Part shown: piece by piece, positions 32,097 through 62,160 of the stretch
Layout of the letters: every line of letters begins with the position of its first letter
Position numbering within the stretch: the stretch's first letter is position 1
Origin: Arthrobacter sp. C2
GTDB lineage: Bacteria > Actinomycetota > Actinomycetes > Actinomycetales > Micrococcaceae
Direction: 5' to 3'
Assembly: GCA_024207135.1 (NCBI GenBank)
Contig: CP042428.1
Coordinates: 4,092,001 to 4,156,000, forward strand
Length of the DNA: 64,000 bases
The notes under the pieces: model-generated
The model's input: only the letters and a program-made list of their open reading frames with translations
Databases searched by the model: none
What the model was told of the DNA's origin: nothing
Position numbers and translations under genes: made by a program

Positions 32097-32978
32097 GTGA
32101 CTTCCGTAGAATCGACCCCGCCACCACTGCTCGGCGCCACCGAGATCCGCCGCCTCGCCGGCGAACTCGACGTGCGCCCCACCAAGACCCTGGGGCAGAA
32201 CTTCGTCATAGACGGAAACACCATCCGGCGCATCGTGGCCACCGCCAAGCTGGACCCGGCCGAAACCGTGCTGGAGGTCGGGCCGGGCCTCGGCTCGCTG
32301 ACCCTGGGCCTGCTGGATGCCGCCGCCCGCGTGGTGGCGGTGGAAATCGACCCGAAGCTCGCCGCCCGGCTGCCGCAGACCGTCACCGAAATGCGCCCGG
32401 AGAAGGCGGAGAACCTCACGGTGATCCTCTCCGATGCCATGAAAGTCACCGAGCTGCCGCACGCGCCCACCGCGCTGGTGGCCAACCTGCCCTACAACGT
32501 CGCGGTGCCCGTGGTGCTGCACCTGCTCGAGCACTTCCCCTCCCTGCAACACGGACTGGTCATGGTCCAGGACGAGGTCGCCGATCGCATGGCCGCGGGC
32601 CCGGGCAACAAGACCTACGGCGTGCCGTCAGTCAAGGGCGCCTGGTACGGCACCATGCGCAAGGTCGGGGTCATAGGCATGAACGTGTTCTGGCCCGCCC
32701 CCAAGATCAATTCCGGGCTGGTCGGCTTCGAACGCGGCAACCCGCCGCAGACCACCGCCACCCGCCAAGAGGTCTTCGCCGTCATCGACGCGGCCTTCGC
32801 CCAGCGCCGCAAGACGCTGCGCGCCGCCCTGGCCGGCTGGGCCGGATCCCCGGCGCTGGCAGAGGCCGCGCTCGTGGCCGCCGGCGTCGACCCGCAGGCC
32901 CGCGGCGAAAAGCTCGGCATCGCCGAATTCGCCGCGATTGCCGAGGCCAAGGTCGCATCCGTACCCGGTACCCCATGA
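32097..32978 (+). CDS. rsmA: 16S rRNA (A1518/A1519-N6) dimethyltransferase RsmA/KsgA
   Basis: KsgA dimethylates two adjacent adenines in helix 45 of 16S rRNA with SAM, a late 30S assembly checkpoint. The 293 residues contain TLGQNFVID, the SAM motif [17 protein letters not shown], the acidic [14 protein letters not shown] and the catalytic [11 protein letters not shown]. The C-terminal region INSGLVGF and the [10 protein letters not shown] helix are typical. The GTG start is supported by the TAAGAT hexamer 6 nt upstream. The stop overlaps ispE (ATGA). Confidence 0.97.
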
Positions 32979-33916
32979 CCCACACCGTCGTTGCCCGCGC
33001 CCCGGGAAAGATCAACTGCTACTTCAGGGTCGGCCCGCCCCGCGAAGACGGCTACCACTCGGTGGCCAGCCTGTACCTGGCCGTCTCGCTCTACGAGGAC
33101 GTCTCGGCCACCGCACGCGCCGACGAGGAAATCCAGGTCTTCCTGCACCCCGATTCCACCGCGGTCGCGGACCCCGAGTCCTTCCCGCTGGGCCCGGACA
33201 ACCTGGTCGTCAAGGCCGCACTGATGCTGCGCGAACACACCGGGCACTACGCCGGTGTCGATCTGTGCATCACCAAGCGCGTGCCGATCGCCGGGGGCAT
33301 GGGCGGGGGATCGGCCGACGCCGCCGCCGCCCTGGTGGCCTGCAACGCGCTGTGGGGCACCGGGCTGAACCGCGAGGAACTGGCCCGGCTGGGCGCACGC
33401 CTGGGCGCGGACGTGCCCTTCGCGATGCAGGGGGGCGCCGCCGTCGGGCTGGGCGTCGGCGACGAGCTGGCCCCGCTGCTGCTGCGCACCCGCACCGACT
33501 GGGTGCTGGTCCCGGCCTCCTACGGGCTGTCCACCCCCAGGGTCTACGGCATGCTCGACCGGCTGCGGGCCAACGAGGAGGTCACCACCCCCGTCGAGGT
33601 CGACCCGGCAATGGTCGGGGCGCTGCTCGACGGGGACCTCGATGCCCTGGCGCCGCTGCTGGCCAACGACATGACCCGCGCCGCCCTGGCCCTGGCCCCC
33701 GAACTCGGCGTGGTGCGCGACCTGGGCGAGGCCGCCGGCGCGCTGCACGCCCTGGTCTCCGGATCCGGCCCCACCCTGGCGCTGCTGGCCCGCAACCCGG
33801 ACCATGCGGCCCAAATCATCACCCAGCTTTCGGATGAGGCGGGCGTGGCAACGCTGTCCGTCCACGGCCCGGTCCCCGGCGCCGTCATCCTGCCCGCCGT
33901 CATCGAAACCCCTTAA
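32975..33916 (+). CDS. ispE: 4-diphosphocytidyl-2-C-methyl-D-erythritol kinase IspE
   Basis: GHMP kinase of the MEP isoprenoid pathway that phosphorylates CDP-ME. In 313 residues: [20 protein letters not shown] near the N-terminus, the ATP loop [20 protein letters not shown], and the C-terminal [15 protein letters not shown]. Length is standard. It is translationally coupled to rsmA and supplies precursors for the polyprenyl carriers needed by the many glycan genes in this window. Confidence 0.97.
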
Positions 33917-33934
33917 CAAAAGGAGCACCACACC

Positions 33935-35743
<1,809 letters not shown>

Positions 35744-35761
35744 TCCCCGGGCGGCAATGGG

Positions 35762-35810
35762 GAGGCATCGGGCCCGGACGGACACCTGTTCGAAGCCGGG
35801 CCGCGGCCTC
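35762..35810 (+). repeat. GC-rich stem-loop after the ABC-F gene
   Basis: GAGGC (35762-35766) pairs with GCCTC (35806-35810) and, inside, GGCCCGG (35771-35777) pairs with CCGGGCC (35796-35802). No T-tract follows. It lies 18 bp past the ABC-F stop, at the boundary of the accessory island. Confidence 0.4.
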
Positions 35811-35887
35811 CGATCCGACTCGTTCCGCTCTACCAATCCGATCCCTGCCGTGACAGACTTATCCACGGGAGCAAAGGTGATTGGGCA

Positions 35888-38647
35888 GTGCAGATCAACG
35901 GTTTGGGGACCGCGACATCAGCATCACCACCGAACCATGACCAGGCAACAACGCCGGATCATGATTTTGACTGGGATGTTTTCGCGCATTACGAATTGCT
36001 GGAAGAGACCATTGGGGCGGTACTCAATGGTCCCGGTGCCTTGCTCGAGGGGCCCGGCGGGGTCGGCAAGCGTACCCTTGCCAACGCCGTGATGCTGAAA
36101 CTGCAAGACAGGGCGTTCATCGTCGACCTCGAGCACCCCGAACGCCATCGGACCTCCATGGAATTGGCAAGCAAACTGCGGCGAATCGAACGGCTCGGCG
36201 AGGTGGCCCGTTTCCACGAACTCGGAGTGGTCAAGACACTCCTGGATTCGAGAGCCGGTGGCCGGCATGTGGTGGTCTTCATCCCCGCCGGTTTGCGGCT
36301 TGGAGCGTCAAGCGTTTCCTTCCTGTCCTCACTGACCCTGGCGAGCAGCATTTCGTTGCTGTGCATCGCCGGCGGGCAGGACGGGACGGAACCCGGGGCG
36401 GGAAACGACTTGGGTGCCGCCGTCGACCTGCATCCGGTCAGGCTGCATCCGTTGACCCTGGGCATGACGCATGACCTGCTGGCCAAGGCCTTGGGGGCAG
36501 AAATCAGCCGGATTGCCACTTACCAATTGTGGTGCGCTTCTGCAGGGCAGGTGCACCTGCTCGCTGCGGTTACCCTGGACTGGCGCGAACAGGGGTATCT
36601 TGATTTCGCGGAAAACTCGTGGGTGGTTCATGGCGTTGCCGGTCCTCCAGGGCCGCGCAGCCGCGGTCTGGTCGTTCAAAAGCTCAGGCGGTTCTCGAAG
36701 CCGGAGCAACGGGTGCTGCGCATCCTGGCGTTCTCCGAGGAAATCCCGCTTAGCCTGCTGGTGGCGCTCAACCCCGCGCAGGCCGTGGATTCAATCTATT
36801 CCGAGGGCATGCTGGAGATCCGCGGGATGTATGCGCGCAAGGTGCGGCTGCGCGGGGGGCTGAGCAACCAATGCATTGCCGAGGACACTCCGCCCGGCGT
36901 CGCACTGGAGCTGCTCGAGCAAATACGCAACACGCCCGGGGCCGACGAGGTTCTCACACCGTTGGTCCTGCTGAAGTGGGAACAGGCCTCCGGGATCAAC
37001 TCCGGCGCCCGGCTCCGGTTGCAGGCGGCGGAACAGGCCTACGCCGAGGGACAAGTCGAACTGTGCCTCCAAATACTGGCGGCGCTCGAAGACCCTCCGG
37101 TCGAGGCGCGTTTGTTGGCGCTGGACGCGGCGGTCCGCGGTGGTCAACTTGAACGGGCAAGGGAAATTCGCTCGCTTTTGCGGCTGGAGCTGGGAGAAGG
37201 ACTCCCGGTTCCCGGCTCCCGGGGCAATCCGCGCTGCCCAATCGACCTGATCCGCCTGGAGCTGGCTTCGACGGTTCTTGAGTCGCTGAGCCCCGATGCA
37301 CCAACCGATGCCTTCCAGCAGGGAATGAAGCGTGCTCGGGTCGATATCGATGCGTGCCTCTCCGGGGAACCGGAAAACCGGGAGGGTTTCCTCGTGCTTC
37401 GAGGCAGGCTCGATCTCATGGAAGCCGAAACCAGCTTCCTGCTGGGTGAACGATTTGACACCGGCGGGACAACCTATATCCACCCAGTGCTGGGCAGGCA
37501 CGAGCAGCTAAGTTGGCAGTGCTTCCAGAACCTGCACTCGGTGCGCCGTGGCGAGGTCAGGGAAGGGATCAGACGCGGACGCGAACTGCTTTTCTCGTTG
37601 CGGCAGGAGTCGCTCCCGCCGGCCGTTGGACAAAGCATCAAACTGCATCTCGTTGACCTGTATCTGCTCTCCGGGGAATGGAAAAATGCCTTCGAGCTCA
37701 TTGCTGCGGCGTGGATCGGTGGCGAGGGATCCCCCCGGATCGCCGATGTCAATGGGTTGTACTCGTCGCTCAAAAGCGTGCTGAGCGGCCGTCCGCGGGA
37801 GGCGCTGGAGCTGATGACCGTCGAGATCGAACAGTTGCGGACGGTAGATACCGCCGGGTACCTGCCGCTGGCGATTGCCGCGGCGGCGGTGGCGGCCTCA
37901 TTCCTGGACCGGGAAACAGCCGAGCGCTACCTCGCGGAACTGGATGCCATGCCTGCTGCGGCCGATTGGGTGTCCGGGCAGACGATTGCTATGTTGCGAG
38001 CCGAGGCGCTCTTCCACCTTGGCCATGCGGGCGAAGCGGTATCCTGCCTGCTTGCCGGCGCTATCGTGAGCGCCGCCCACGGCGACCTCAGCCTTGAGCT
38101 GGCCCAGCGAATGTCCTTGCTGCGCATGGGCCACCGGGAAAGCGACGCCCAACTGCTTGAATGCGCGCAACAGATCGATGGGCCGGTGGCGGAACTTGTG
38201 GCCGCATTGGTGCGAAGCCTTGAGGGAAACAACCGCGAATTGCAGCGGGAAGTGCTCGGCGCCCTTCGCGGCTTGGGCCTTCGCTCATTTACCGATTCAA
38301 TTGAGGTAATGCTTGTCCGATCCGGATCCGACATCGAATTGACACCCTGGAAAGCCGCTTCTGAGCGTGCGGGCGCATCTCTGGGTGTGTCCGGGAGAAG
38401 CTCGGCAAGCAGTGTCCTTTCCTTGTTGACCCAGCGGCAGCGGATGATCGTGGCGGAAGCTGCCACCGGCGCCAGCAACCGCGAGATCGCAAACAGGTTG
38501 CAACTGAAAATTCGGACAGTTGAGGGCCATCTCTACCAGATTTACCAGCGACTCAATGTGGGTTCCCGCGATGGGCTGATCCAGATTTTTCTGGATTCGA
38601 TTCCCGGTTCCGATCTGGAAGTCGCCGTTGAGGGATGGAGTACTTAA
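35888..38647 (+). CDS. Large LuxR-family transcriptional regulator 1 (LAL-like)
   Basis: 919-residue protein with an N-terminal NTPase-like domain, a long helical middle resembling TPR repeats (about 380-830) and a C-terminal LuxR helix-turn-helix from residue 847 (LTQRQRMIV, then SNREIANRLQLKIRTVEGHL). Walker A is intact (GPGGVGKRT, 55-63), but the Walker B strand VVVFIPAGLRLG (128-139) has lost its acidic residues. LAL/STAND regulators sense a ligand or partner and oligomerise on DNA. First of three tandem paralogues upstream of the polysaccharide operon, so probably an operon regulator. GTG start, moderately certain. Confidence 0.85.
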   Translation: MQINGLGTATSASPPNHDQATTPDHDFDWDVFAHYELLEETIGAVLNGPGALLEGPGGVGKRTLANAVMLKLQDRAFIVDLEHPERHRTSMELASKLRRIERLGEVARFHELGVVKTLLDSRAGGRHVVVFIPAGLRLGASSVSFLSSLTLASSISLLCIAGGQDGTEPGAGNDLGAAVDLHPVRLHPLTLGMTHDLLAKALGAEISRIATYQLWCASAGQVHLLAAVTLDWREQGYLDFAENSWVVHGVAGPPGPRSRGLVVQKLRRFSKPEQRVLRILAFSEEIPLSLLVALNPAQAVDSIYSEGMLEIRGMYARKVRLRGGLSNQCIAEDTPPGVALELLEQIRNTPGADEVLTPLVLLKWEQASGINSGARLRLQAAEQAYAEGQVELCLQILAALEDPPVEARLLALDAAVRGGQLERAREIRSLLRLELGEGLPVPGSRGNPRCPIDLIRLELASTVLESLSPDAPTDAFQQGMKRARVDIDACLSGEPENREGFLVLRGRLDLMEAETSFLLGERFDTGGTTYIHPVLGRHEQLSWQCFQNLHSVRRGEVREGIRRGRELLFSLRQESLPPAVGQSIKLHLVDLYLLSGEWKNAFELIAAAWIGGEGSPRIADVNGLYSSLKSVLSGRPREALELMTVEIEQLRTVDTAGYLPLAIAAAAVAASFLDRETAERYLAELDAMPAAADWVSGQTIAMLRAEALFHLGHAGEAVSCLLAGAIVSAAHGDLSLELAQRMSLLRMGHRESDAQLLECAQQIDGPVAELVAALVRSLEGNNRELQREVLGALRGLGLRSFTDSIEVMLVRSGSDIELTPWKAASERAGASLGVSGRSSASSVLSLLTQRQRMIVAEAATGASNREIANRLQLKIRTVEGHLYQIYQRLNVGSRDGLIQIFLDSIPGSDLEVAVEGWST

Positions 38648-38735: not shown

Positions 38736-38764
38736 CCATGGACGTACTTGGGGAAGGTCCATGG
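38736..38764 (+). promoter_or_regulatory. Perfect inverted repeat over the start of regulator 2
   Basis: CCATGGAC (38736-38743) and GTCCATGG (38757-38764) are exact reverse complements with a 13-nt loop containing GGGGAAGG, a plausible ribosome site. The second arm contains the ATG at 38761. As RNA, the stem would hide the start codon; as DNA, it could be an operator. An 11-codon frame (38738-38773) begins in the first arm. Confidence 0.45.
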
Positions 38765-40896
38765 CTGGTTTAACCGGAATTGGGGAACGGGTGAACAGCA
38801 TGATGGAACTTTCTTGGCATGCAGAAATTTCGAATAATGCCGAGGTATCTGGACAATCGATCTTTGCCGAACTACTTGGGGATTCACCACGAAGGCAGGG
38901 CCTGAGGGAGCTGCAGACGGCACTGGGTGATGCCCAGACCAGTTCGATCGTGTTGCTCGGGGAGCACGGCGATGATCGGGCGGCCTTGGTGCGCGCAATC
39001 CAGCGAAACGATTTGGGGCTGGCCGAGCCGATCCATGTCATCGGCACTCCATATGCGCAGCATCTCACTTACGGGGCCTTGGCTTTCCTGCTCGCGCAGC
39101 TGGAGGCAAACGAGGCAATTAGCCCGGCCAATGTCATGCGGGTGATTTCAAAACACGTCACCACCCACGGCCAGCGGCCGGTGGTCGTGGTGCAGTACCC
39201 CCGCCTGTTGGACGCTCAGTCCCGGGCGGTTCTCGCCCAGATGACCCACAACAGAAGCATTCTCTTGGTCGTCTTGACCGAACAGGCCGAGTTCCTGCCG
39301 CCTGAGTTCGCCCCCGTCAGCAGCGGTCGTGGACATCGCGAAATCCGGCTGGGGGCACTTCGCATCGACGAAGTCCAGGCAGCCCTGCAAAAAGAATTTG
39401 ATGCCGTTCCCACACCCATGGCGACGGCGGCCATGTGGCGCCAAAGCCAAGGCAACCCGGGCTGGTTGTATGCCTTGGGCCAGGATGCGATTGCCAGTGG
39501 GAAGCTGCTTGTCCACGAGGGACATTTGGTGCTGGGCCCAAGACCCTGGCCGCGGGATGGCCAATTGGAGTCGATGGCCCTGTCGCAAATAGCGATTCTC
39601 ACCGTTTCGCAGAGAAACTTGTTGGAGCGGATTGCAGTTGAGCAACCCATGCACATCCGTGGGCTGGCGAACGACGAGCTCATGGACCTCGACCACCTCA
39701 TTGGCTGGGGGTTTGCCCAACGGGATCGAGAACACCGGCAGCTGGTGGTGCTCAGCTCCCAGCTCCTGGCGGGAGTGCTTCATCCGGAATCACGCGTCGA
39801 CGTCCATGGGGTGGATGCCGGGTCGTTGTCCGTCGAGGGGAACTTCCATGATTTCATCGCCGGGGAGTCACGCGTGGTGAATGAGCTTTCCAATAGCTCT
39901 GAAGACTCTGCCCGGAACCTGGGTGCGCTGCTGGTGCAACTTCGGAAGTGCCTGCTTTGCGGGGAGATGCAGCGGGCAAATGCGTACCTGAAATGCATTG
40001 TCAACGAATTTTTGGAGAATATCTCCCCTGCGCTATTCGAACTCCTCGTCATGGTCAATTGCATCTTGAATATCGTTGGTGACAGGCCCGGAAACGACCG
40101 AAAGGTACTGGAATCGGTGCTTGCGCAATTCGAGCAGGACGACGCGGGCCATGACCGTTGGCTTGTCAAATCGATGCTGTTCCACCTGCGCACTAAGGAC
40201 GAGCCGGCTTCCTGCAACGCCCTCGACTTCCAGGAACGATGGAGCAAGGCTCGCTGGTGGTTCAGCGACCTTCTTGCCTCCGTTGATGCCGATGCCTCAG
40301 CGGTTTCCCTCAATGGCTCGCCGCTGCGAGGGTCCACAAAGTGCGAGACAATGGATGCCCTGGTCGCCTTGCATCATGGGGCGACGATCGACGGACCGCC
40401 TCCCGCTCACGCACATCCCGCAGCTGAATCGAACGTGGCAAAAGCCATCGACCTGCTGCTCGCGGGAACCAACGGGAACCGGGAAAAGAGCGTCTTGGAT
40501 GCGCTGGACCTTCTTGTCGGCGACGATCTGTCAATTTTTGCCTTGCCCAGGTCCAACCGCATCCTTGCCGGCATATCGGTCGCGGGGCGGTTGGCCGTTG
40601 CGGGGTGGCTGAAGCAGCGCAGAAAGGGAAATGCGGTGCGTTCGGGCACCGAAGATGTAGAACTCATGATGCGGGACAATCCCGTGCTGGAGGTCCTGAC
40701 CAAGCGAGAAAAATTCGTTGCAAGTGCCGCGGCCCAAGGAATGAACAACCAGCAGATCGCACGCGACGCCGGTGTTTCGATTCGCACCGTGGAAGGGCAC
40801 CTTTACCAGATATATTCCAAGCTGGCCTTGGGAGGACGGCGGGAGTTGAGCACCCTCGTCGCGACACTACGGGTAGATGACCGAGTTGCCCCATGA
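38761..40896 (+). CDS. Large LuxR-family transcriptional regulator 2, P-loop degenerate
   Basis: 711 residues with the same plan as its neighbours: NTPase-like N-terminus, helical middle and a LuxR helix-turn-helix from residue 646 (LTKREKFVASAA, NNQQIARDAGVSIRTVEGHL). The Walker A position reads GEHGDDRA (67-74), without the lysine or Ser/Thr, and the Walker B strand VVVVQYPRLLD (141-151) lacks the acid, so ATP hydrolysis is unlikely. The DNA-recognition stretch IRTVEGHLYQIY is identical to regulator 1. The ATG at 38761 lies in an inverted repeat; GTG 38791 or ATG 38800 would remove 10 or 13 residues. The stop overlaps regulator 3 by 4 bp. Confidence 0.82.
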   Translation: MAGLTGIGERVNSMMELSWHAEISNNAEVSGQSIFAELLGDSPRRQGLRELQTALGDAQTSSIVLLGEHGDDRAALVRAIQRNDLGLAEPIHVIGTPYAQHLTYGALAFLLAQLEANEAISPANVMRVISKHVTTHGQRPVVVVQYPRLLDAQSRAVLAQMTHNRSILLVVLTEQAEFLPPEFAPVSSGRGHREIRLGALRIDEVQAALQKEFDAVPTPMATAAMWRQSQGNPGWLYALGQDAIASGKLLVHEGHLVLGPRPWPRDGQLESMALSQIAILTVSQRNLLERIAVEQPMHIRGLANDELMDLDHLIGWGFAQRDREHRQLVVLSSQLLAGVLHPESRVDVHGVDAGSLSVEGNFHDFIAGESRVVNELSNSSEDSARNLGALLVQLRKCLLCGEMQRANAYLKCIVNEFLENISPALFELLVMVNCILNIVGDRPGNDRKVLESVLAQFEQDDAGHDRWLVKSMLFHLRTKDEPASCNALDFQERWSKARWWFSDLLASVDADASAVSLNGSPLRGSTKCETMDALVALHHGATIDGPPPAHAHPAAESNVAKAIDLLLAGTNGNREKSVLDALDLLVGDDLSIFALPRSNRILAGISVAGRLAVAGWLKQRRKGNAVRSGTEDVELMMRDNPVLEVLTKREKFVASAAAQGMNNQQIARDAGVSIRTVEGHLYQIYSKLALGGRRELSTLVATLRVDDRVAP

Positions 40897-43535
40897 GAAT
40901 TCCCGGTCTCGAGCCCGACCAGGCTCCTGCGCGCGATCTTCGGCAGGAGCTGCGCGAGTTGCTGGATCGAACGGGATCCACGGGCGTTGTCGTTTCCGGA
41001 CCGATCGGAAGCAGAAAGAGGCAGTTGCTCCTGGAAGTGTTGGGAGAGGAACTCGCGAATGCGGTGCACTTGCTTTGTTCCCCCGTACTGGGTGAAAGTG
41101 CCTTCGGGGCTCTCTCGCCTTTGCTCATAGAATTCGATGGACATCTGGGCGAACTGGAGCTGCTGCGCTACCTCACACAGCGACTCGAATCGACCACGGG
41201 TTCCAAGCAGTTGGTGGTAGTTGAAGAAGCCCAATTTCTCGACGCCGCGAGCGCCTTCGTGCTCTCACAATTGGCCTTGGCTGGAACCATCAAACTCATC
41301 TTGCTGGCCGTGGGCGATGGCCACATTGATACTGTGGTGGCCAGCACCCAGCTTGGTGCCAGATTGGGTCACCTTTCATTGAGTGCTCTTACACCCAGTG
41401 AAGTGGCCGAGCACGTACAACGATTCTTTGGGAAGCCGCCCACCGGCACCTCGGCCAAGGCGATTGCATCAATATGCGGTGGAAACCCCATGCTGATTGA
41501 CGCATTCCTACGGGCCGCGATTGAACAAGGCCTCTTCGTGGAGTCACCCGACTGGTTAGTGCTGACTCGACCGCAGGCGAATGATCGCGTTCACCTGAGT
41601 TCAGTGGTCTCGGAAATCCAAAAGCGGCTTAATGCTGATGATGCCGAGGCGCTGGAAATCCTTGCCCTGGGAGGACCCGCCGAAGCGAAGACACTTCAGC
41701 ATTTCTCGGGCACCAACTTGGGACGGCTCGTGGGAACAGGTCTTGTTCGCTATATCGATGATTCAAGAATCGAGGTATCTGCGCCGATATACGCACACGC
41801 TTTGCGCGACCTGGTCCCACCCGGGAGAAGCGCAGCCCTGTGGGAACGCTTTTCATCGCAGGTCTCGGAAATGGTTACGTCCCCGAAGGCCCTGCTGTGG
41901 GCCTGCGAAAGCGGTGAGATCGTCTCCTACGAGAGATTCGTGGACGCCATTGACCTTGCCAACAAGAACCTGGATTTCATCGAGGCCTGGGAACTTTGCC
42001 AACTCACGGGAGTTTGGGAAGAAGACCCCTTCCTTGCGCTTCTTGCCGCGCGTTCCATGCTGGGCATGGGACAACACCAGTTACTCACGGAAACCATCAG
42101 GCACGCGCTGACACAGACGACGGACCTTGCATTGATCAGCGAGCTCAAATCGGTGGAGGCAAGTTCACTGTGGCAGGAAGGCGATTCCGCCAACGACATC
42201 GGCTCGCTGGTCAGCGATTGGGCGCAACGCACCGAAACCATTGCTTCCGGAGGATCGAGGCAGGAAGCAGGGGCCCTCGAAAAATCCCTGTTTGGGATCG
42301 AGGTCTTGAACCTGTGGCTGGAATTTGGGGCGCGGGAAAATCTTCTATCACTCCTGGATCATGCCCTGGAATGCGAACGACGGAGCATCGCCGGGAGCGT
42401 GGAATTCCTGAACTGCCGTGACGTGCGCTGCCGGGTGCTTCTGGACCTGGGCAGATTCGTTGAAGCGGCCGATGCCGCCCTCGAGGCGGTGGACCTGATT
42501 CGCGCAAGTTCGGAAGTTGAATCGATGGACGGCTACCAATTCATGACAACCGCGCTGAGGGCATTGATCGCGGTGGGGGATTACGACGCCGTGGGGACAA
42601 TTGCCTCGTACCGGGAGTCGGCTCATCCGAGCCTGCAGATGCACTGGAGCGGCACACTGCATCTTTGGGCGGGCTTCGCGGCTGTTCAGCAGGGACGCTG
42701 GCAACGCGCCGGACGGCTGCTGTCCGAAGCTCGTGCGGAGCTCGCCATCAACGATCCGGACCAACTGCATGAATTGGCCGAGGCTCTGGGGGTCTACGAA
42801 GACGCGCAGCTTCACGGGGCCGAGGCTCAGCAGATACCCGAATACCGGGAAACCGCGCTACTACGTGGTTACCACGGACTTGGAAACGAAGACGCGAAGC
42901 TCCTCGCCGAAGGCTATCTGGCCTTGGCATCGTCCCCGGCCAACACAGACCGACTGAACCAGCTCATTGATCGTGCCAAGCGAGAACGGCACGCGCACAC
43001 CGAACACCAATTGCTGCTGATGCGTTGGCAGATGGGGCTTTCCACCGCCGCCGGACCCGCTGGGTGCGAGCGGCTGCGGCAATTGAGTGTCAAGGGCGTT
43101 TCGCAAAGAAGCAATGCACTGGCGGCGGCACTCGAGCTGACTACCTCGGCGGGGACGGAAATGATCGACCAAGTGGCAGAAGAGCTGTTCTCGGTGGGCG
43201 AAACGGGATTGGGCGCGGAGCTGTTGGCCTCATCTCTGCACGAGCTCACTGCAGAGGGCCATGAACGCCGCCGTGGGCTCGTTCTTCGTCGTTTGGCCAT
43301 GTGGATCCAGGAACTGGGCGGGACTGCCTGGGGACCGCTGCGACCGGTGGTGCGTGAGAGAAGCTTGACCAGACGCGAGGAAGAAATCATCTCGTTGGTT
43401 CGAGAGGGAAAAAGCAACAAGGAAATTGCTCGAAAACTGACGGTGTCCCAGCGGACTGTGGAAGGTCATTTGTATCGGGTTTTTGCCAAGCTCGGCATCA
43501 GCGGCCGGGAAGAACTGGGCGCGACAGAAACGTAG
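40893..43535 (+). CDS. Large LuxR-family transcriptional regulator 3
   Basis: 880 residues: N-terminal NTPase-like domain, long helical repeat middle, and a LuxR helix-turn-helix from residue 825 (LTRREEEIISLV, SNKEIARKLTVSQRTVEGHL). The P-loop reads GPIGSRKR (36-43): the Lys is kept, but the Gly before it and the following Ser/Thr are lost. The Walker B region VVVEEAQFLD (108-117) keeps two acids. The ATGA overlap with regulator 2 implies co-translation in one operon. Its stop is about 150 nt before the promoter of the structured RNA that precedes the polysaccharide genes. Confidence 0.85.
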   Translation: MRIPGLEPDQAPARDLRQELRELLDRTGSTGVVVSGPIGSRKRQLLLEVLGEELANAVHLLCSPVLGESAFGALSPLLIEFDGHLGELELLRYLTQRLESTTGSKQLVVVEEAQFLDAASAFVLSQLALAGTIKLILLAVGDGHIDTVVASTQLGARLGHLSLSALTPSEVAEHVQRFFGKPPTGTSAKAIASICGGNPMLIDAFLRAAIEQGLFVESPDWLVLTRPQANDRVHLSSVVSEIQKRLNADDAEALEILALGGPAEAKTLQHFSGTNLGRLVGTGLVRYIDDSRIEVSAPIYAHALRDLVPPGRSAALWERFSSQVSEMVTSPKALLWACESGEIVSYERFVDAIDLANKNLDFIEAWELCQLTGVWEEDPFLALLAARSMLGMGQHQLLTETIRHALTQTTDLALISELKSVEASSLWQEGDSANDIGSLVSDWAQRTETIASGGSRQEAGALEKSLFGIEVLNLWLEFGARENLLSLLDHALECERRSIAGSVEFLNCRDVRCRVLLDLGRFVEAADAALEAVDLIRASSEVESMDGYQFMTTALRALIAVGDYDAVGTIASYRESAHPSLQMHWSGTLHLWAGFAAVQQGRWQRAGRLLSEARAELAINDPDQLHELAEALGVYEDAQLHGAEAQQIPEYRETALLRGYHGLGNEDAKLLAEGYLALASSPANTDRLNQLIDRAKRERHAHTEHQLLLMRWQMGLSTAAGPAGCERLRQLSVKGVSQRSNALAAALELTTSAGTEMIDQVAEELFSVGETGLGAELLASSLHELTAEGHERRRGLVLRRLAMWIQELGGTAWGPLRPVVRERSLTRREEEIISLVREGKSNKEIARKLTVSQRTVEGHLYRVFAKLGISGREELGATET

Positions 43536-43551
43536 CTTCCTGCTCTCGCTT

Positions 43552-43576
43552 CATGGCCGGCACCGCCGTGGCCATG
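43552..43576 (+). terminator. Hairpin just after regulator 3
   Basis: CATGGCC (43552-43558) pairs with GGCCATG (43570-43576), with an inner GGC/GCC helix. It begins 17 nt after the stop codon, so it may end the regulator transcript, although no T-tract follows. Confidence 0.4.
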
Positions 43577-43672
43577 CCGCGAATTTCACCGAGTAGCCAC
43601 GAGCCGGAAACCGCGTAGTGTCCGGCCGAGAATCAGGTAGGACGTACGCGTGAGACCGCGGCGGCCCCTGCC

Positions 43673-43678
43673 TAGTAT
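43673..43678 (+). promoter_or_regulatory. -10 element of the structured RNA
   Basis: TAGTAT fits the TANNNT -10 pattern used in this window and lies about 7 nt before the first base of the RNA structure. No good -35 is present, which would fit an activated promoter; GACGTACG lies 26-33 nt upstream. Confidence 0.45.
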
Positions 43679-43684
43679 TTGAGT

Positions 43685-43918
43685 TACCCCGAGGGATTCT
43701 GTTCCCGGCAGAGACCGTGTCAGGTGCCCCCGCCTGAAACACGGTTCCGGAGCCGGAACACGGCAAGGGGGCAAGTGGTCCCCACGAGTGGGGCATCACT
43801 TGAACATCAGGACTGGAGTCGGCGGTTGGCGATCCGCTTTCGGGCGTGATCGACCCCCCAGCAACCGCCGGCTCCTTCCGTAAAAAACCTCCCCGGTGCG
43901 TTGTGCCGGGGTTTTTCA
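43685..43918 (+). ncRNA. Candidate structured RNA / riboswitch-like leader with terminator
   Basis: No coding frame explains this region. Helices visible: GGGA/TCCC (43693-43706); ACCGTGT-CAGG (43714-43724) with CCTG-AA-ACACGGT (43733-43745); GTTCCG/CGGAAC with a GAGC loop (43744-43759); AAGTG-CCCCAC with GTGGGG-CACTT (43773-43801); and a 14-pair helix, GGAGTCGGCGGTTG (43815-43828) with CAACCGCCGGCTCC (43862-43875), with one G-U. The loop GCCCCC (43726-43731) can pair with GGGGGC (43767-43772) as a pseudoknot. ACACGG occurs twice (43740 and 43759 regions), giving ACCGTGT two competing partners. It ends at an intrinsic terminator. It resembles none of the common RNAs I know (6S, RNase P, SRP, tmRNA, c-di-GMP, cobalamin). 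It could be a leader controlling the polysaccharide operon or a free small RNA. Confidence 0.6.
43891..43917 (+). terminator. Intrinsic terminator of the structured RNA
   Basis: CCCCGG (43891-43896) pairs with CCGGGG (43906-43911), followed by TTTTTCATT and preceded by AAAAAA, so it may work on both strands. It stands between the structured RNA and the polysaccharide operon. Confidence 0.8.
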
Positions 43919-43948
43919 TTGCCCGGGGATCCACCGCTTGCCCCTTGT

Positions 43949-43971
43949 GGGTCGGTACGTACGTAAGACCC
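43949..43971. promoter_or_regulatory. Operator-like palindrome upstream of the polysaccharide operon
   Basis: GGGTC (43949-43953) and GACCC (43967-43971) flank the self-complementary core TACGTACGTA (43956-43965). The 23-bp symmetrical element is of the size bound by a dimeric helix-turn-helix protein. The core ACGTAC also appears upstream of regulator 2 and of the structured RNA. Confidence 0.45.
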
Positions 43972-43982
43972 GAGTGTCTACT

Positions 43983-44039
43983 TGGCTCCTCGTGGAGTCG
44001 AATCGAGTAGTCGTTTACGCGTGTACCCGGAAGGAGCCA
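43983..44039 (+). repeat. Long-range inverted repeat in the polysaccharide operon leader
   Basis: TGGCTCCT (43983-43990) and AGGAGCCA (44032-44039) are exact reverse complements enclosing 41 nt. Downstream lie two direct CTTGGGGA copies (about 44096-44111) and a possible promoter TTGGGG-N17-CCTATT (-10 about 44128-44133) that would give a leader of about 45 nt before the first gene. Confidence 0.35.
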
Positions 44040-44185
44040 GAACTAGGCTCGACACAGATCGACATTGGGGAATTGATAAAACCTGTAGGACAAAACTTGG
44101 GGACTTGGGGAACAATGTACAGCGCATCCTATTCGCGTGTGCGTGCAATTTCCATGAGCCCGATTCATGGCGAAGGATCACTCAC

Positions 44186-45670
44186 ATGACCAACATCAAC
44201 GAGTCATTCGATGCGGCCTCGCATTGGTGGCCGGTGCGCGCAAATGTTCGGTCCCGCACCGAAGCGATTACGGTCGAAGCGCCCGCCAGGGCGTGGCGGC
44301 GCAGATTCACGTGGCGGCTAACCGCAACGGATGTAGCAACCATCGTGTTGGTATCCGCCATCGGTTCGATGGCCTTTCCCGGAGTCGCGAGCACGGGGAG
44401 GCTGGAGGTAGCCGTCGCGGCCATGTTCTGGATGCTTCTCCTTGCGCTTTATCGAACCCGCTCATTGCAGCGCATCGGTGCAGGAGCCTTGGAATACAAG
44501 CGTGTTGTCGATGCCTCTGCAGTCTCCGCCGGCTGGACCGCCATGGCCATCATCCTCACCAACTCGATGGAGAACCGCTGGATCCTCTTGGCCGTCTACC
44601 CCGTCGGGCTGCTGGCGCTGCTGCTGGAACGGTGGCTCTGGCGCCAGTGGTTGACGCGGCAAAGCACCAAGTCCGGGCACTACCTGTCGCACGTCGTGGT
44701 CGTCGGCCAGATCCCGGATATCCGATATGTCACCGAACGGCTCGCCCAGCACTCCGGTGCAGCCTACAAGGTCGTAGGCGCGGTTTATGACGAAGAGGTT
44801 GTGCCCGGGCACGGTGCGGCCTACCTGCAACGCGCGGGCCTGGCCAACCTGGAAAACGTGGTGGCCAGCACGGGGGCCGATGCCGTCATCGTCGCCGGTT
44901 CGCTGCGTGCCGGCAATGAAGAGATCCGCAAGCTGGGATGGCGTTTGGAAGAATCACGCACCCAGATCATCCTGGTCTCGAGCCTGACGAATGTCGCCGG
45001 CCCCCGTATCAGGATGCGCCCGGTCGAGGGCCTGCCACTGATGCATGTGGACCTGCCCAACTTCGACGGCGGGCACCACGTGGTGAAACGCGCCATGGAC
45101 ATCGTCTTGTCGGGGACCGCGCTGATCCTGCTCGCCCCGGTCCTGGCCGTCCTGGCAATCATCGTCAGGAAAGACAGCGAAGGCCCGGCCTTCTTCTCCC
45201 AGTATCGGGTCGGCCGCAGCGGGGAACCGTTCAAGATGTACAAGTTCCGCTCGATGGTGGTTGATGCCGAGGACCAGCTGGAAAGCCTCCAAGGCGAAAA
45301 CGAGGGCCACGGCTACCTCTTCAAGCACAAGGCCGACCCGAGGATCACCGGCGCGGGCAGATGGATGCGCAAGTATTCTCTCGATGAATTGCCCCAGCTG
45401 TTTAACGTCCTCAAGGGCGACATGTCCTTGGTGGGTCCCCGTCCGCCCTTGGCGAGCGAAGTGGCCCAGTACGAAGGAGCCACCGAACGTCGCCTGTACA
45501 TCAAGCCAGGCGTCACGGGACTGTGGCAGACCCGCGGACGTTCGGACCTGCCAATGGATGAAAGCATCCGCCTCGATTTGTACTACGTGGAGAACTGGTC
45601 GGTGACCGGGGACCTCATGATCATGTGGCGGACCGTGAAGGTCATGATCAAACCGGAAGGTGCATACTAA
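44186..45670 (+). CDS. Polyprenyl glycosylphosphotransferase (WcaJ/WbaP-like initiating sugar transferase)
   Basis: Membrane enzyme that starts glycan repeat-unit synthesis by moving a sugar-1-phosphate onto undecaprenyl phosphate. 494 residues: four membrane helices (about 46-64, 72-89, 108-125, 132-148), a CoA-binding-like Rossmann region (170-290), then a re-entrant helix and the bacterial sugar transferase domain. That domain shows KRAMDIVLSGTALILLAPVL, GPAFFSQYRVGRSGEPFKMY, KFRSMV and LFNVLKGDMSLVGPRPP. The ATG has GAAGGA upstream. It heads the operon: the next gene starts immediately after the stop. Sugar specificity cannot be read. Confidence 0.94.
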   Translation: MTNINESFDAASHWWPVRANVRSRTEAITVEAPARAWRRRFTWRLTATDVATIVLVSAIGSMAFPGVASTGRLEVAVAAMFWMLLLALYRTRSLQRIGAGALEYKRVVDASAVSAGWTAMAIILTNSMENRWILLAVYPVGLLALLLERWLWRQWLTRQSTKSGHYLSHVVVVGQIPDIRYVTERLAQHSGAAYKVVGAVYDEEVVPGHGAAYLQRAGLANLENVVASTGADAVIVAGSLRAGNEEIRKLGWRLEESRTQIILVSSLTNVAGPRIRMRPVEGLPLMHVDLPNFDGGHHVVKRAMDIVLSGTALILLAPVLAVLAIIVRKDSEGPAFFSQYRVGRSGEPFKMYKFRSMVVDAEDQLESLQGENEGHGYLFKHKADPRITGAGRWMRKYSLDELPQLFNVLKGDMSLVGPRPPLASEVAQYEGATERRLYIKPGVTGLWQTRGRSDLPMDESIRLDLYYVENWSVTGDLMIMWRTVKVMIKPEGAY

Positions 45671-50868: not shown

Positions 50869-52325
50869 AGAAGCCTCAGCCGCAACAACTGACTACCAAC
50901 GCCGGATCGGGATTCGCTTGGAGTCTTTTCAACACCGTGGTGACCCGGATCGGGACCTTGGGGATTGGCATTGTCCTGGCCCGGGTTCTGGGCCCCGAGC
51001 AGTTCGGAACCTATGCCGTTGCGCTTGTTGCACTGTTGGCTGTCTTGAGTTTCAACGAGTTGGGAGTTAGCTTGGCGATCGTTCGATGGCGTATGGATCC
51101 GCGGCAGATCGCCCCAACCATCAACACGATGTCAACGATTAGTTCCGTTGTTTTCTGCGGCGTTGCAATCCTGGTGGCACCGGCCTTTTCCCAGGCCATG
51201 CGAGCCACGGAGGCAACTCCCGTGGTCCAGGTCCTGGCCCTGAGCATCGTCGTCAGCGGAGTCGTGTCGACCCCGGCTGCGCTGCTGCAACGCAGCTTCA
51301 AGGAAAAGCAGCGAATGGCCATTGACCAGGTCAACGTCTGGGTTGGCGCCATCGTTTCGGTTGTCCTGGCAGTGCTGGGAATGGGGGCAATGTCCCTTGC
51401 AATTGGAAGGCTGGCAGGATCCCTCGTTTCCGCAGCCTTCTTTCTCAAGGCTTCACCGATTCCATATCGGTTTGGCTGGAACACCACGCATGCGCCAGCG
51501 TTATTCAAGTTCGGTCTGCCTCTGGCTGGCACGAGCATTGTCATGTTTCTTGTCGGCTACGCGGACCAGCTGATCGCGGGTTCCATGCTGGGCGCGATTG
51601 CCTTGGGCTTCTATGTTCTTGCATTCAACCTTTCGTCGTGGCCCGTGAACATCATCTCCCAGCCGCTTCGGCGAGTAGGCCCCGCCGCCCTGGCAACCCT
51701 GCAGCATGATCCGGTTCGGCTTAGCGGTGCCCTCAGGCAGCTGTACTCGGTTGTTGCGGCCGCGACATTCCCGGTTTTTGCAGCAATCGCCGTTTCTTCG
51801 GAATCCCTCGTGGTGCTGATCTACGGACAGGTGTGGCAACCTGCCTCCGTGGCACTGCGCTGGCTCGTGATCGCCGCCCTCGGCAAGGTGATTTCCGATC
51901 TCTTCTACGACTACTTCGTGGTGATCGGCCAGACCTCACGGGTCTTCGCCGTACAGACTGGCAGCCTGGTCGTGGCCATTCCCGTGCTTGTCCTCGGTGC
52001 GGCCATGGGGGGCATAGGAGGCCTGGCCGCGGCGCAAGCCGCAGTCTCTTGGCTCGTCGTTCTTCCGTTGTACTTCTGGAACCTATCCAGAAGCGGAACA
52101 AAGGTCGGGCAATTCGCCCGACTCATCCTCTGGCCGATGGCCGGCGCCGCAGCAGTGGTGCTGTGCTCCGTTGCCTTGGACCTCTTCGCGGTTGGATCGC
52201 TTCCTGGCTTGGCAGTGGTTACCGTGCTTGCAGGTACCGCTGCCGCGGCACTGCTTTGGCTGCGCCGCACGGACCTCGGGTTCCTCTGGGGCATTGGCCG
52301 GACGGAGGCTCCAATCCATGCGTAG
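50865..52325 (+). CDS. wzx: Oligosaccharide flippase (Wzx-type, MOP superfamily)
   Basis: 486-residue integral membrane protein with about 12-14 hydrophobic helices and the PST/Wzx N-terminus SGFAWSLFNTVVTRIGTLGI plus LARVLGPEQFGTYAVALVAL. It would move the undecaprenyl-linked repeat unit across the membrane for polymerisation by the Wzy-like protein at 54632-55966. ATG within the previous stop (ATGA); the 3' end overlaps the lipoprotein gene by 8 bp. Confidence 0.9.
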   Translation: MKKPQPQQLTTNAGSGFAWSLFNTVVTRIGTLGIGIVLARVLGPEQFGTYAVALVALLAVLSFNELGVSLAIVRWRMDPRQIAPTINTMSTISSVVFCGVAILVAPAFSQAMRATEATPVVQVLALSIVVSGVVSTPAALLQRSFKEKQRMAIDQVNVWVGAIVSVVLAVLGMGAMSLAIGRLAGSLVSAAFFLKASPIPYRFGWNTTHAPALFKFGLPLAGTSIVMFLVGYADQLIAGSMLGAIALGFYVLAFNLSSWPVNIISQPLRRVGPAALATLQHDPVRLSGALRQLYSVVAAATFPVFAAIAVSSESLVVLIYGQVWQPASVALRWLVIAALGKVISDLFYDYFVVIGQTSRVFAVQTGSLVVAIPVLVLGAAMGGIGGLAAAQAAVSWLVVLPLYFWNLSRSGTKVGQFARLILWPMAGAAAVVLCSVALDLFAVGSLPGLAVVTVLAGTAAAALLWLRRTDLGFLWGIGRTEAPIHA

Positions 52326-53610
52326 ATTCCAGAACGCACGAAGTATCGGCTTGCTGCTCGCGGTGCTGCTGCTGGCTGGATGCACCGCGTCGGCCGGTGT
52401 CCAACCACCGACGAATTCGTCTGTCCGCCAAAGCATCGAAGCCCTTCCCAGGATTCCGTGGGAGGGCGGAAGCTCCTACTGGACCCAATTCGAGCGGGCA
52501 CGGGATGCGGGGTGGGACCGGCAGGATTTCTTCCCGATAGCGGTGTGGTTCAATTCGGTTTCCACCAACGAACAGATGCAATACGACAAGTCGTTGGGCA
52601 TCAATACGTATGTGGGTCTCTGGGAAGGAACGGATTACAAGCTCCTGGAAGACAATGGCGCCTACTTCATTGGGCCAAAACTCAACGACACGTTCACCAA
52701 GGAATCCAAGAATTGGGTGGGGTACTTTCTCGGCGATGAAATTGATGCCCACCAGGATGCACAAAGCGGCCTCGACATCATGAAGAAGGCTGCTTCGGCC
52801 GTACCTGACGGCTATTTTTCCTATTCCAATTACACGCTCAATGTTGCCAGCAAGAATCTTCCCGATGATGTCGCCAATGCCTTCGTGAACAACTTCACCG
52901 ATGTGGTTTCGGCGGACATGTATTGGTACACCGTCCCCTACTGTTCGAATGAACCGTACTGGGACGAAACCTTGGTTCCAGTGCGAAAGGAAAACTGCCG
53001 AAGAGCCGCCAGCTACGGCAAAGTGGTCGAGTCTCTTCGCCAACGAGACTCCAGCGATACGCGGCTTCAGCCCGTTTGGCAATTTGTCGAAAACCTCAAT
53101 GGCGGCTACTTCGGCGAACCCCTGGTTCGCTACATTGGTGCCGACGAACTCAAGGGTGCCGTCATGAGTTCGATCATCAGCGAAGCCCGGGGGCTGATCT
53201 ACTTCAATCAGAGCCTGTCCGGGAAGTGCCGTGCTGGAAGCGTTTTTCGTGAATCCGAGGCCACCAGCACATACTGCGGAGCGGACCAGGTTGCTGCCGC
53301 GTCCCAAATAAACCAGTTGATCCAGGGCTTGGCAACCGTGCTCAATAGCCAGTCCTACGACTTCAGTTTCGGTGAGGGCCTGAAGACCATGTTCAAGATG
53401 TCAGATGACCACGCCTACATCTTCTCCATGGTCGATGGGGATTCATTGCCCGGTCCTAGGACCTTCGCCTTGCCGCCGGGGGTCAGGCCCTCGAATGTTG
53501 AGGTCCTGAACGAAAATCGGGAAATTCCGGTTGACGACAAGGGAGTTTTTGTGGACGAATTCAGCCACGAGTACAGCTTTCACATATACAAGTTTTCGGT
53601 CGCGCCTTGA
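52318..53610 (+). CDS. Secreted lipoprotein resembling a TIM-barrel glycoside hydrolase, function unknown
   Basis: 430 residues with a lipoprotein signal (MRRFQNARSIGLLLAVLLLA, then GC; lipidated Cys22). The mature part has the look of a (beta/alpha)8 glycosidase-like domain: DFFPIAVWFN, GINTYVGLWEG, VGYFLGDEIDAH (candidate acid Glu in GDE), DVVSADMYWYTVPY and RGLIYFNQSLSG, then a small beta C-terminal part. No exact GH family is assigned. Being inside the operon between wzx and a Wzz-like gene, it may trim, modify or hold the nascent polysaccharide on the outer face of the membrane. A 143-bp gap follows. Confidence 0.8.
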   Translation: MRRFQNARSIGLLLAVLLLAGCTASAGVQPPTNSSVRQSIEALPRIPWEGGSSYWTQFERARDAGWDRQDFFPIAVWFNSVSTNEQMQYDKSLGINTYVGLWEGTDYKLLEDNGAYFIGPKLNDTFTKESKNWVGYFLGDEIDAHQDAQSGLDIMKKAASAVPDGYFSYSNYTLNVASKNLPDDVANAFVNNFTDVVSADMYWYTVPYCSNEPYWDETLVPVRKENCRRAASYGKVVESLRQRDSSDTRLQPVWQFVENLNGGYFGEPLVRYIGADELKGAVMSSIISEARGLIYFNQSLSGKCRAGSVFRESEATSTYCGADQVAAASQINQLIQGLATVLNSQSYDFSFGEGLKTMFKMSDDHAYIFSMVDGDSLPGPRTFALPPGVRPSNVEVLNENREIPVDDKGVFVDEFSHEYSFHIYKFSVAP

Positions 53611-53716: not shown

Positions 53717-53767
53717 ATGAGTGCACAACGCTTGCTGGGGGCAGGTGGATCAAATGTTCCTTCGTGA
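53717..53767 (+). CDS. Possible 16-residue leader peptide before the Wzz-like gene
   Basis: ATG at 53717 with a strong GGGAGAAGAAG just upstream opens a 16-codon frame (MSAQRLLGAGGSNVPS) ending in TGA at 53767, overlapping the first 14 bp of the next gene. It may couple translation or be accidental; no family is recognised. Confidence 0.25.
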   Translation: MSAQRLLGAGGSNVPS

Positions 53768-54626
53768 TCTGGTGAAGAGCATCCTAAGACGTTGGTATGT
53801 GGTTCTGTTGGGCATCGCCTTGACCGGATTCATGGGGCTGCAGGCTTACCAGTCGGCGCCCGTGACGTATCAGGCGGAGGCCAGCCTCGTGCTGATTCCT
53901 CCGCCGGATTCGGTAACGATCGGCGACAACCCGTTTCTGTACCTGGGCGGGCTGGACCAGGCACTGGGCGTATTGACGGTCAAATTGAACTCGTCAGAGG
54001 CCCAGTCCGTTATTCTTGCCGGTTCGCAGGACAACAGTTACACCGTGGCCAAGGACTCGGACACCACGGGTCCCATCATGCGGATCGACGCCTCAAGTAG
54101 TTCGGCCCAAGGCGCATTGAAAACGCTCGGCGCCGTGGTCGACGAAACCCCGAAATTCTTGGACATTCTCCAGAACGATCTCAAGGTCCCGAAGCAATCC
54201 AAGCTGGCCACCTTGGTGCTGTCCGTGGACAAGGTTCCTGTCGAAAACGACAAAGCGAAGATCCGATCGCTGTTGGTGGTCGTCGCCGCCGGCGGTGCCG
54301 GGACACTGCTTCTCACCGGACTGATCGATAGGATGATCGGCGCGCTGAAGGACAGGAAGCTGCGCAAGGGACGGGCCCCCGAAGTGTCTTTCCCCGAGGG
54401 AACCGAACTCGAGGCGCTGGAATACGACATGACTGCACAGCGTGACACCCGGGACATCTCAAACACCACGCTGAACAAGCTCCAGTCGCCACGGCACACG
54501 CCGGATGTGGCCTCGGAAGCCAAGAGGCAAACTCCTGACCCTGAGGTCCGAGGGCTTTTCGAGACGGTGGAGACTGTCGGCTCTGTTCCGGCCAAGATGC
54601 GTGGCCGTAGCGGGCGCGGAGAGTAG
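53754..54626 (+). CDS. Wzz-like polysaccharide co-polymerase 1 (no kinase domain)
   Basis: 290 residues: short cytosolic N-terminus, helix 1 (13-31, RRWYVVLLGIALTG), an extracytoplasmic domain (about 34-170) and helix 2 (172-191), then about 95 residues of charged cytosolic tail. This is the layout of chain-length regulators, but the C-terminal tail carries no Walker motifs or Tyr cluster of a BY-kinase. It likely sets polymer length with the Wzy-like polymerase encoded 5 bp downstream. ATG with AGGTGG 8 nt upstream. Confidence 0.82.
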   Translation: MFLRDLVKSILRRWYVVLLGIALTGFMGLQAYQSAPVTYQAEASLVLIPPPDSVTIGDNPFLYLGGLDQALGVLTVKLNSSEAQSVILAGSQDNSYTVAKDSDTTGPIMRIDASSSSAQGALKTLGAVVDETPKFLDILQNDLKVPKQSKLATLVLSVDKVPVENDKAKIRSLLVVVAAGGAGTLLLTGLIDRMIGALKDRKLRKGRAPEVSFPEGTELEALEYDMTAQRDTRDISNTTLNKLQSPRHTPDVASEAKRQTPDPEVRGLFETVETVGSVPAKMRGRSGRGE

Positions 54627-61336: not shown

Positions 61337-61569
61337 TTATTGCCCCCAATGCCATGGCACCATTTCTTGCCTCAGGTTTCCGGCTTGTTTTGCCCCAAGC
61401 AACCAAGCCCCATTGCCACCAACATACGCGTGGACAGGCCATCAGGCTAGGGGTTCCCCGGAAGTTCGTGCACTAGCCTTCTCCAAGGTGGAACCCTGCA
61501 AGCATTGGATCCGGCCAAGCCGGGCCCGGTGCCCAAGGGCAATCCCGCGTCGTGCGGCCGGCGAGAAAG
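61337..61569. other. Intergenic region between the hexapeptide transferase and the two-domain glycosyltransferase
   Basis: 233 bp. The end next to the glycosyltransferase start is AT-rich (minus-strand GCAATAATTGTTACATC) and may hold its promoter. The middle has GC-rich inverted repeats around 61510-61540. I see no gene on either strand: the open frames here are G/C-rich and lack start signals. Confidence 0.4.
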
Positions 61570-62160
61570 CTAGGGTGCCACAGGGCGGAGAACCTCGTTG
61601 TGCACAAGGTATTTGCGCTCTGTGCGGGGGCACACCCACCAGTCCTCTTCCGGTCGCAGTGGATGGCCGGCCTCTCCCGCCCAACCAATCTGCCGTGCCG
61701 GTACCCCCGCAACCATGGCGTAATCCGGGACGTCCTTGGTCACCACGGATCCCGCAGCCACGATCGCCCATTTTCCGATGCTCAATGGTGCGATACAGGT
61801 GGCTCCGGCTCCGATGGCTGCCCCGGTCCCGATGTTGACTCCGACCATCTCCCAGTCCGAGGCGGCTTTCAAGGTGCCGTCCGGGTTGATGGCGCGGGGG
61901 AAGAGATCGTTGGTCAGTATCACGGCAGGACCAATGAAAACGCCATCGGCGAGGACCGCCGGTTCATACACCAGGGCGTAGTTTTGTATTTTGCAGCGGT
62001 CGCCCAAACGCACGCCGGGTCCGATGTAGGCGCCCCTGCCGACATTGCATTCGCTGCCCACCACGGCATTTTCCCTGACCTGGGCCAAATGCCAGATATT
62101 CGTTCCAGCGCCGATCATTGCGTCGATTGCGACATCGGCGCTCGGCTCAATGTGGTTCAT
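61570..62160 (-). CDS. Hexapeptide-repeat sugar N-acetyltransferase (WlbB/QdtC-like)
   Basis: 196 residues forming a left-handed beta-helix: IWHLAQVRENAVVG, CNVGRGAYIGPGVRLGDRCK, GVFIGPAVILTNDLFPRA and VAAGSVVTKDVPDYAMVAG, with the VGVPARQIGW-type ending. WlbB, WbpD, QdtC and FdtC have this order and acetylate the 3-amino group of nucleotide sugars with acetyl-CoA. It complements the Gfo/Idh dehydrogenase and aminotransferase 2 encoded on the other strand. Promoter for the minus-strand part of the island probably lies just upstream (62161-62262). Confidence 0.88.
   Translation of the reverse strand: MNHIEPSADVAIDAMIGAGTNIWHLAQVRENAVVGSECNVGRGAYIGPGVRLGDRCKIQNYALVYEPAVLADGVFIGPAVILTNDLFPRAINPDGTLKAASDWEMVGVNIGTGAAIGAGATCIAPLSIGKWAIVAAGSVVTKDVPDYAMVAGVPARQIGWAGEAGHPLRPEEDWWVCPRTERKYLVHNEVLRPVAP

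Follow-up and report, generated by a model that had tools for sequence, protein, structure and literature searches.

What kind of element fills the gap between the last LuxR-type regulator gene and the first polysaccharide gene at this locus? The window, by which we mean the whole 64,000-nt stretch of DNA analysed, covers positions 4092001-4156000 of a single-contig 4.56-Mb genome of the Micrococcaceae. Within it, the stretch 43680-43918 is situated between three large LuxR-type (GerE) regulator genes (35888-38647, 38761-40896, and 40893-43535, all on the plus strand) and a polysaccharide operon headed by a sugar transferase gene (PF02397; 44186-45670, plus strand). The transferase is followed by genes for an oxidoreductase, an epimerase, an aminotransferase, an O-antigen ligase-type protein and a glycosyltransferase. 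A small ORF of 24 codons (44115-44189, plus strand) ends in a TGA that overlaps the transferase ATG; this overlap and the conserved first residues were used to place the transferase start, the longest ORF beginning at 43982. Elsewhere in the window, the ORFs at 32615-35866, 52171-53610, 53721-54626, 58611-59060 and 61552-62847 have no Pfam match at 1e-6, and some of them may be wrong frames.

An earlier note, made from the letters of the window, had read 43680-43918 as a structured RNA in which no gene fits. It had favoured a ligand- or protein-sensing leader with competing helices and named a free regulatory RNA of about 230 nt as the alternative.

A structured RNA with a conserved hairpin core

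No plus-strand ORF of at least 80 aa covers the stretch from 43680 to the terminator, in agreement with the view that no gene fits. The overlapping 127-aa ORF (43551-43934) is on the minus strand, and a 97-aa plus-strand ORF begins at 43896. The plus strand of 43680-43918 folds with -118.9 kcal/mol and a z-score of -4.59, which none of 200 shuffles equals, versus a z-score of -0.97 for the minus strand, where 35 of 200 shuffles are as good. The core also covaries (see below), and the structured RNA at 43680-43918 is real. The TAGTAT box placed by the earlier note at the 5' end was found at 43673-43678, just outside the start chosen there, and is the CTANTNT box conserved in the genus alignment. 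The intrinsic terminator at the 3' end was likewise recovered, at 43891-43911 plus a T run (43891-43916, plus strand). With its start inferred from the -10 box and its end from the terminator, the proposed free RNA of about 230 nt would span 43685-43916 on the plus strand.

In a DNA similarity search, eight of 98 relatives matched. Two matched over the full length (92%), and in five genus members the match was confined to the 3' hairpin (83-86%); the eighth match (L010), 34 bases at the other end within what by eye is apparent coding sequence, was taken as chance. A LuxR-type gene is next upstream in all of the other seven. The alignment of eight genus sequences has a near invariant core and variable surroundings. 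This core is a hairpin (43815-43875, plus strand) with a 14-bp outer stem, an inner stem and a one-sided internal loop, and its outer stem is the 14-pair helix of the earlier note, present as 43815-43828 with 43862-43875. The internal loop, ACCCCCCAG (43853-43861, plus strand), had been overlooked. It is identical in all eight genus sequences, save one extra C in one of them, and most of its bases are predicted to be unpaired; we propose it as the pairing element of the RNA.

The other pairings suggested for the stretch are not conserved in the eight-sequence alignment. The loop GCCCCC, thought to pair with GGGGGC, is common only to the two closest relatives; the five other aligned sequences lack 4 bases, and their loop reads GTGCAC (four) or GTTCAC (one) instead. 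The strand ACCGTGT, for which two ACACGG copies were to compete, appears as ACCTTGT in the two close relatives, and the five others lack the arrangement. In a consensus fold of the eight sequences the covariation term outside the core is +0.5, and one common full-length structure is unsupported. Because the competing helices are not conserved, a ligand-sensing leader is unsupported as well; nothing at the locus indicates a ligand, and with no riboswitch model matching either, membership in a riboswitch class was rejected. A coding reading of the hairpin in the host genus was also rejected, since, as judged by eye, a TGA just ahead of the hairpin interrupts the frame that elsewhere stays open through it. 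Seven of eight host-genus members (L011-L018) have no ORF leading from the RNA up to the start of the transferase; the exception is L012, in which an ORF begins inside the RNA and reaches the transferase in a frame not common to its close relatives L011 and L013.

An RNA family of the Micrococcaceae

The earlier note had proposed a covariance-model search and a check of compensatory changes in the 14-pair helix. A first model (R1), built from the core, matched 12 of 15 genus genomes and 89 of 295 Micrococcaceae genomes at E 0.01. A second model (R2) was built from 46 sequences, a set without L025 and L036 (perfect hairpins without the C loop), L020 and the L036 genome mates, the L020 region being represented by L049. 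At E 1e-5 R2 matched 158 of 295 Micrococcaceae genomes in 18 of 32 genera, with at most five matches per genome. At E 1e-3 it matched 20 of 297 genomes in an order-wide draw, 16 of them Micrococcaceae, and three of 396 in a phylum-wide draw, two of them Micrococcaceae. The five matches outside the family (four in the order, one in the phylum) are all weak. A pattern scan of named genomes returned 65 stretches, mostly from Arthrobacter and Pseudarthrobacter and also from Paeniglutamicibacter, Specibacter, Sinomonas and Glutamicibacter. Exact pattern matches also occur in records titled Flaviflexus, Sporosarcina and Leifsonia (L163, L166, and L203, respectively), where contamination, mislabelling and transfer are not distinguished.

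Among the 46 sequences, both sides changed in 17 of 22 pairs, a count reached by one of 500 shuffles, although the alignment (A3) was fitted to the model and the inner-stem counts lean towards it. Pairing cells amounted to 95.8% as compared to 80.6% in the shuffles, none of the 500 reaching 95.8%. The outer stem is almost gap-free and shows both-side changes in nine of its 14 pairs, which bears out the compensatory changes looked for in the 14-pair helix. The inner stem varies among genera, and the 3' side of the internal loop remains C-rich.

The stretch was said to lack the landmarks of 6S, RNase P, SRP, tmRNA and the common riboswitches, and the Rfam searches agree. At the gathering score the only match in the window is a tRNA elsewhere, the smallest E-value at a permissive threshold across 43500-44200 is 1.4, and no family matches any of 20 homologous loci at gathering. 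A separate tRNA-Arg call by ARAGORN (13509-13607, minus strand) has no Rfam match at gathering and is probably false. Neither of the two sequence-based outcomes that the earlier note had named as refuting, a lack of covariation or a hit to an Rfam family, was seen. The stretch is one instance of an apparently undescribed, hitherto unnamed RNA family of the Micrococcaceae without an Rfam entry. Searches of the open-access literature yielded no description of the hairpin family.

Several known RNAs invite comparison. According to the title of one study, 6C RNA reportedly binds multiple mRNAs via C-rich loops. A passage of one source derives the name 6C from two stem-loops, each with about six C (PMC4046766), and a passage of another reports extra copies per genome for mycobacteria (PMC9569102). 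Like 6C RNA, the hairpin is actinobacterial and has an unpaired C-rich stretch; unlike 6C RNA, it has a single C stretch in an internal loop and, in many genera, an apical loop GAGAC. The hairpin RNA may work like 6C RNA. Membership in the 6C family (RF01066) was rejected: its model has no match at gathering in the window or in the 20 homologous loci and none in the own genome at E 0.01, and a single C stretch belongs to the conserved core, the other C-rich loop, GCCCCC, occurring in three of eight genus sequences only. Matches to the 6C model are found in nine of 39 relatives, five of them above the cut-off; the weak, sub-threshold matches in G001, G012 and G018 are on another contig or far from the hairpin copies. 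A passage of PMC2864571 describes the epsC/EAR RNA (RF01735) of Bacillales as a structured RNA tied to exopolysaccharide genes. The present RNA resembles it in being structured and linked to polysaccharide genes and differs in belonging to another phylum, in being a simple hairpin and in its probable existence as a free RNA in the host genus; the RF01735 covariance model has no match at gathering in the window or the 20 homologous loci, and membership was rejected. In the LoaP and RfaH/ops systems, an RNA or DNA element stands before long polysaccharide operons and a second NusG-type protein is needed. The hairpin shares this position before a polysaccharide operon; antitermination of the LoaP/RfaH type was discarded, as the own genome has one NusG (PF02357 match) and no specialised paralogue. 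Staphylococcal sRNAs of the RsaE and RNAIII kind aim a C-rich unpaired seed at ribosome-binding sites. Likened by description, the seed proposed here is similarly C-rich and unpaired, and it is the internal loop of a long stem.

Genomic position, promoter motifs and complementarity of loop and leader

Removal of four opposite-strand readings (L056, L061, L031, L032) and of L041, a duplicate of L062, reduced 91 matches to 86 places. In this non-random sample, whose regions were picked for different genera and further copies, a sugar transferase gene follows within 700 nt as the nearest gene in 32 places, 23 of which have a LuxR-type gene as their upstream neighbour. Nine places precede a class-V aminotransferase gene (sufS-like), four of the nine behind peptidyl-tRNA hydrolase; eight precede LuxR-type genes, and 37 are elsewhere or have an undetermined next gene. 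Neighbour gene clusters (c0-c3) were named by similarity to window proteins, plus Pfam for a few members. Gene starts came from a simple gene caller, and some transferase starts are mis-called, including the window's own (43982).

The RNA has a probable promoter at 43637-43678 (plus strand), conserved in the genus, in which an activator-type motif GTAGGACGTACGCGTG (43637-43652) is followed after 20 nt by the -10-like TAGTAT. With the same spacing, a probable promoter of the operon (44007-44049, plus strand) combines GTAGTCGTTTACGCGTG (44007-44023), 20 nt and TAGGCT (44044-44049). Across the genome, GTAGNNNNNTACGCGTG is matched exactly at the operon promoter alone; the copy at the RNA promoter is one N shorter. 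The looser motif GTA-N5-9-YACNCGTG was found upstream of the RNA in 21 of the 32 polysaccharide places (0.1 expected from mononucleotide shuffles) and between RNA and transferase in eight of 32 (0.1 expected). At LuxR places (1/8) and sufS places (2/9) the motif is scarce, and 10 of 37 others have it. These motifs suggest that LuxR-type proteins act at the promoters of both the RNA and the operon.

The alternative of a free regulatory RNA is the better reading in the host genus, because the predicted elements include the RNA's own promoter motif and terminator and a second promoter motif for the operon. There, the element probably exists as a free RNA some 230 nt long. In the host genus, g18 and g23 the RNA is kept apart from the operon, usually by a terminator, and a second promoter motif is present at several places. 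The hairpin of other genera is often in the 5' leader of the operon and within a small ORF, which passes through it to the transferase ATGA or GTGA. Since the hairpin there is part of the leader and of an ORF, a protein- or RNA-responsive leader is possible in those genera.

The operon leader contains three TTGGGGA copies (44065, 44097, and 44105; 44065-44111, plus strand), which we propose as targets of the C-rich loop. Complementarity was tested by loop type at the 32 polysaccharide places against 200 dinucleotide shuffles, which ignore relatedness. At 20 places with the apical loop GAGAC(C/T), two of them tandem copies of one locus, GGTCTC occurs 20 times in the 330 nt upstream versus 2.4 expected (0/200 shuffles). 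TTGGGG shows no excess at these places (two upstream and one downstream; 2.3 and 3.1 expected, respectively). At the 12 places with a non-GAGAC loop, TTGGGG occurs 22 times in the 380 nt downstream versus 2.3 expected (0/200 shuffles), with three near-identical genus members giving nine of the 22 counts. GGTCTC has no excess there (one upstream, none downstream); the control motif GGGGTT is raised downstream (7 versus 2.3 expected, 2/200).

Both motifs are found at starts of ORFs coupled to the transferase, the transferase starts in these counts being taken from our own gene caller or by eye. In 11 of 20 GAGAC rows, in genera g24, g28 and g32 only, GGTCTC stands before the start of a hairpin-spanning ORF whose end falls at a plausible transferase start. 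In nine of 12 non-GAGAC places (g1, g18, g23), TTGGGG(G) stands before an ORF of 24 to 31 codons that reaches or overlaps the transferase start. The arrangement is missing in nine of 20 GAGAC and three of 12 non-GAGAC places. Duplex energies for the three leader copies are -10.1 to -10.2 kcal/mol, and the copies are predicted to be largely paired within their own mRNA. A perfect complement of the loop would read CTGGGG, but TTGGGG alone is found downstream (22 of 22 YTGGGG); each loop-leader pairing would therefore contain a wobble, and some other constraint may demand the TT. The paired arrangement TTGGGGA-N2-30-TTGGGGA occurs four times in the genome: once in the polysaccharide leader, once where the second LuxR gene begins (with TTGGGGA at 38748-38754, just before it), once before a sigma-factor gene beside flgN, and once in antisense inside a coding region.

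Proposed mechanism and rival explanations

The observed family, structure, position, shared promoter motif and complementarity lead us to infer transcription of the RNA, LuxR binding, pairing and its sign as follows. Because the promoters of the RNA and the polysaccharide operon share the activator-type motif, the LuxR-type regulators encoded upstream probably switch on both. The core hairpin of the free RNA would expose its C-rich internal loop. The last of the three UUGGGGA copies in the operon leader is at the start site of the 24-codon ORF coupled to the sugar transferase, and pairing of the RNA at these copies would most likely lower translation of this ORF and hence of the transferase coupled to it. 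The RNA would thus be a brake on the freshly activated polysaccharide operon. To this reading, in which a base-pairing RNA of an unnamed Micrococcaceae family is free, is driven together with the operon by LuxR-type proteins and restrains transferase translation via the 24-codon ORF, we assign a probability of about 0.5. The 54 of 86 places that are elsewhere count against it, as the operon is not the sole context. Pairing in its simple form is further weakened by the invariable TT of TTGGGG, by the leader copies being predicted largely paired within their mRNA, by the raised GGGGTT control, by the kinship among the places, by the restriction of GGTCTC starts to three genera and by the nine and three places without the arrangement. 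In other genera the apical loop GAGACC of the leader hairpin has its match in GGUCUC copies, frequently where the hairpin-spanning ORF begins; hairpin and GGUCUC being in one leader, pairing would be internal there.

Tentatively, and with distinctly less confidence, we suggest that one hairpin family acts in two modes, as a cis leader element (with GGUCUC) or as a free LuxR-driven RNA that uses another loop (with UUGGGGA), the motif having switched with the loop while the target operon was kept. If this is true, cis switch and trans regulator would be alternative states of a single element with a retained target, and the family may show a leader element turning into a free regulator, or the reverse. 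If the braking mechanism is right, a widespread RNA family ties LuxR-type regulators to polysaccharide production in the Micrococcaceae, and the natural paired changes of loop and leader offer a direct handle on it.

The odds given to the rival explanations are our judgement. The main alternative overall is that the hairpin serves first and foremost in cis, as part of the operon leader, working by attenuation, antitermination or an ORF-coupled switch, and that the host genus retains a leader remnant with little or no trans action after the operon gained its promoter. It is favoured by the ORF that, in 11 of 20 rows of the GAGAC type, crosses the hairpin and extends to the transferase start, by the distance of less than 70 nt from hairpin to called gene start in many such rows, and by the analogy with leader elements of other polysaccharide operons. 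It is nevertheless doubtful, in view of the terminator and separate promoter at the host locus, the near invariant core in the genus, and further copies away from the operon, one of them near pth and sufS with a T run after the stem. Acting in trans, the main alternative is a protein that reads the leader repeats: the hairpin would bind a protein such as a translational regulator, the GGUCUC and UUGGGGA repeats would be sites of that or another protein, and complementarity would be secondary. The strict TT of TTGGGG fits this idea. CsrA reads GGA motifs, and the genome has a CsrA gene (G000 C1 1571931-1572083), a candidate for the UUGGGGA sites; the TTGGGGA pair before the sigma-factor gene beside flgN is 29 kb from it (L148). 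We consider protein binding rather unlikely, because the leader motif switches together with the loop type, as pairing predicts.

Far less probable is a general C-loop sRNA with many targets, like 6C RNA, that does not regulate the polysaccharide operon in particular. Copies at several kinds of locus, up to five matches per genome, would suit it. So would [CT]TGGGG within 30 nt before called starts, found at 7 of 45 LuxR-type versus 12 of 340 other genes (p = 0.003, uncorrected), in a test that suffers from mis-called starts and in which only 2 of 22 transferase genes show the motif. However, GGGGG alone shows no significant excess (6/45 versus 26/340, p = 0.15), and the positional link and the leader motifs indicate the operon. 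A repeat, mobile hairpin or mere terminator without regulatory function would explain several copies per genome and the tandem copies in L065 and L145, but it is largely disfavoured by synteny, with a recurrent position over many genera, conserved unpaired bases and covariation, and we hold it to be the most improbable of all.

Copies away from polysaccharide operons include one in the same genome, 4.5 kb past the window end between pth and the sufS-like gene (L107 10491-10566; the region L107 10440-10575 is G000 C1 about 4160440-4160575). Its loop is CCGAGACTGG and its internal loop ACCCCCCA, the stem is followed directly by a T run, and the copy has the look of a free sRNA some 100 nt long. 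Nine copies of this T-run kind were tabulated; besides the pth/sufS copy, similar ones are found in at least eight other loci. The tandem copies before the sugar transferase are at L065 5886-6081 and L145 3964-4108. Extra copies in genus g10 (L108, L109, L130, L136, L137, L142) are located behind a BrkB-type gene and between arabinofuranosidase-type and L-arabinose isomerase genes.
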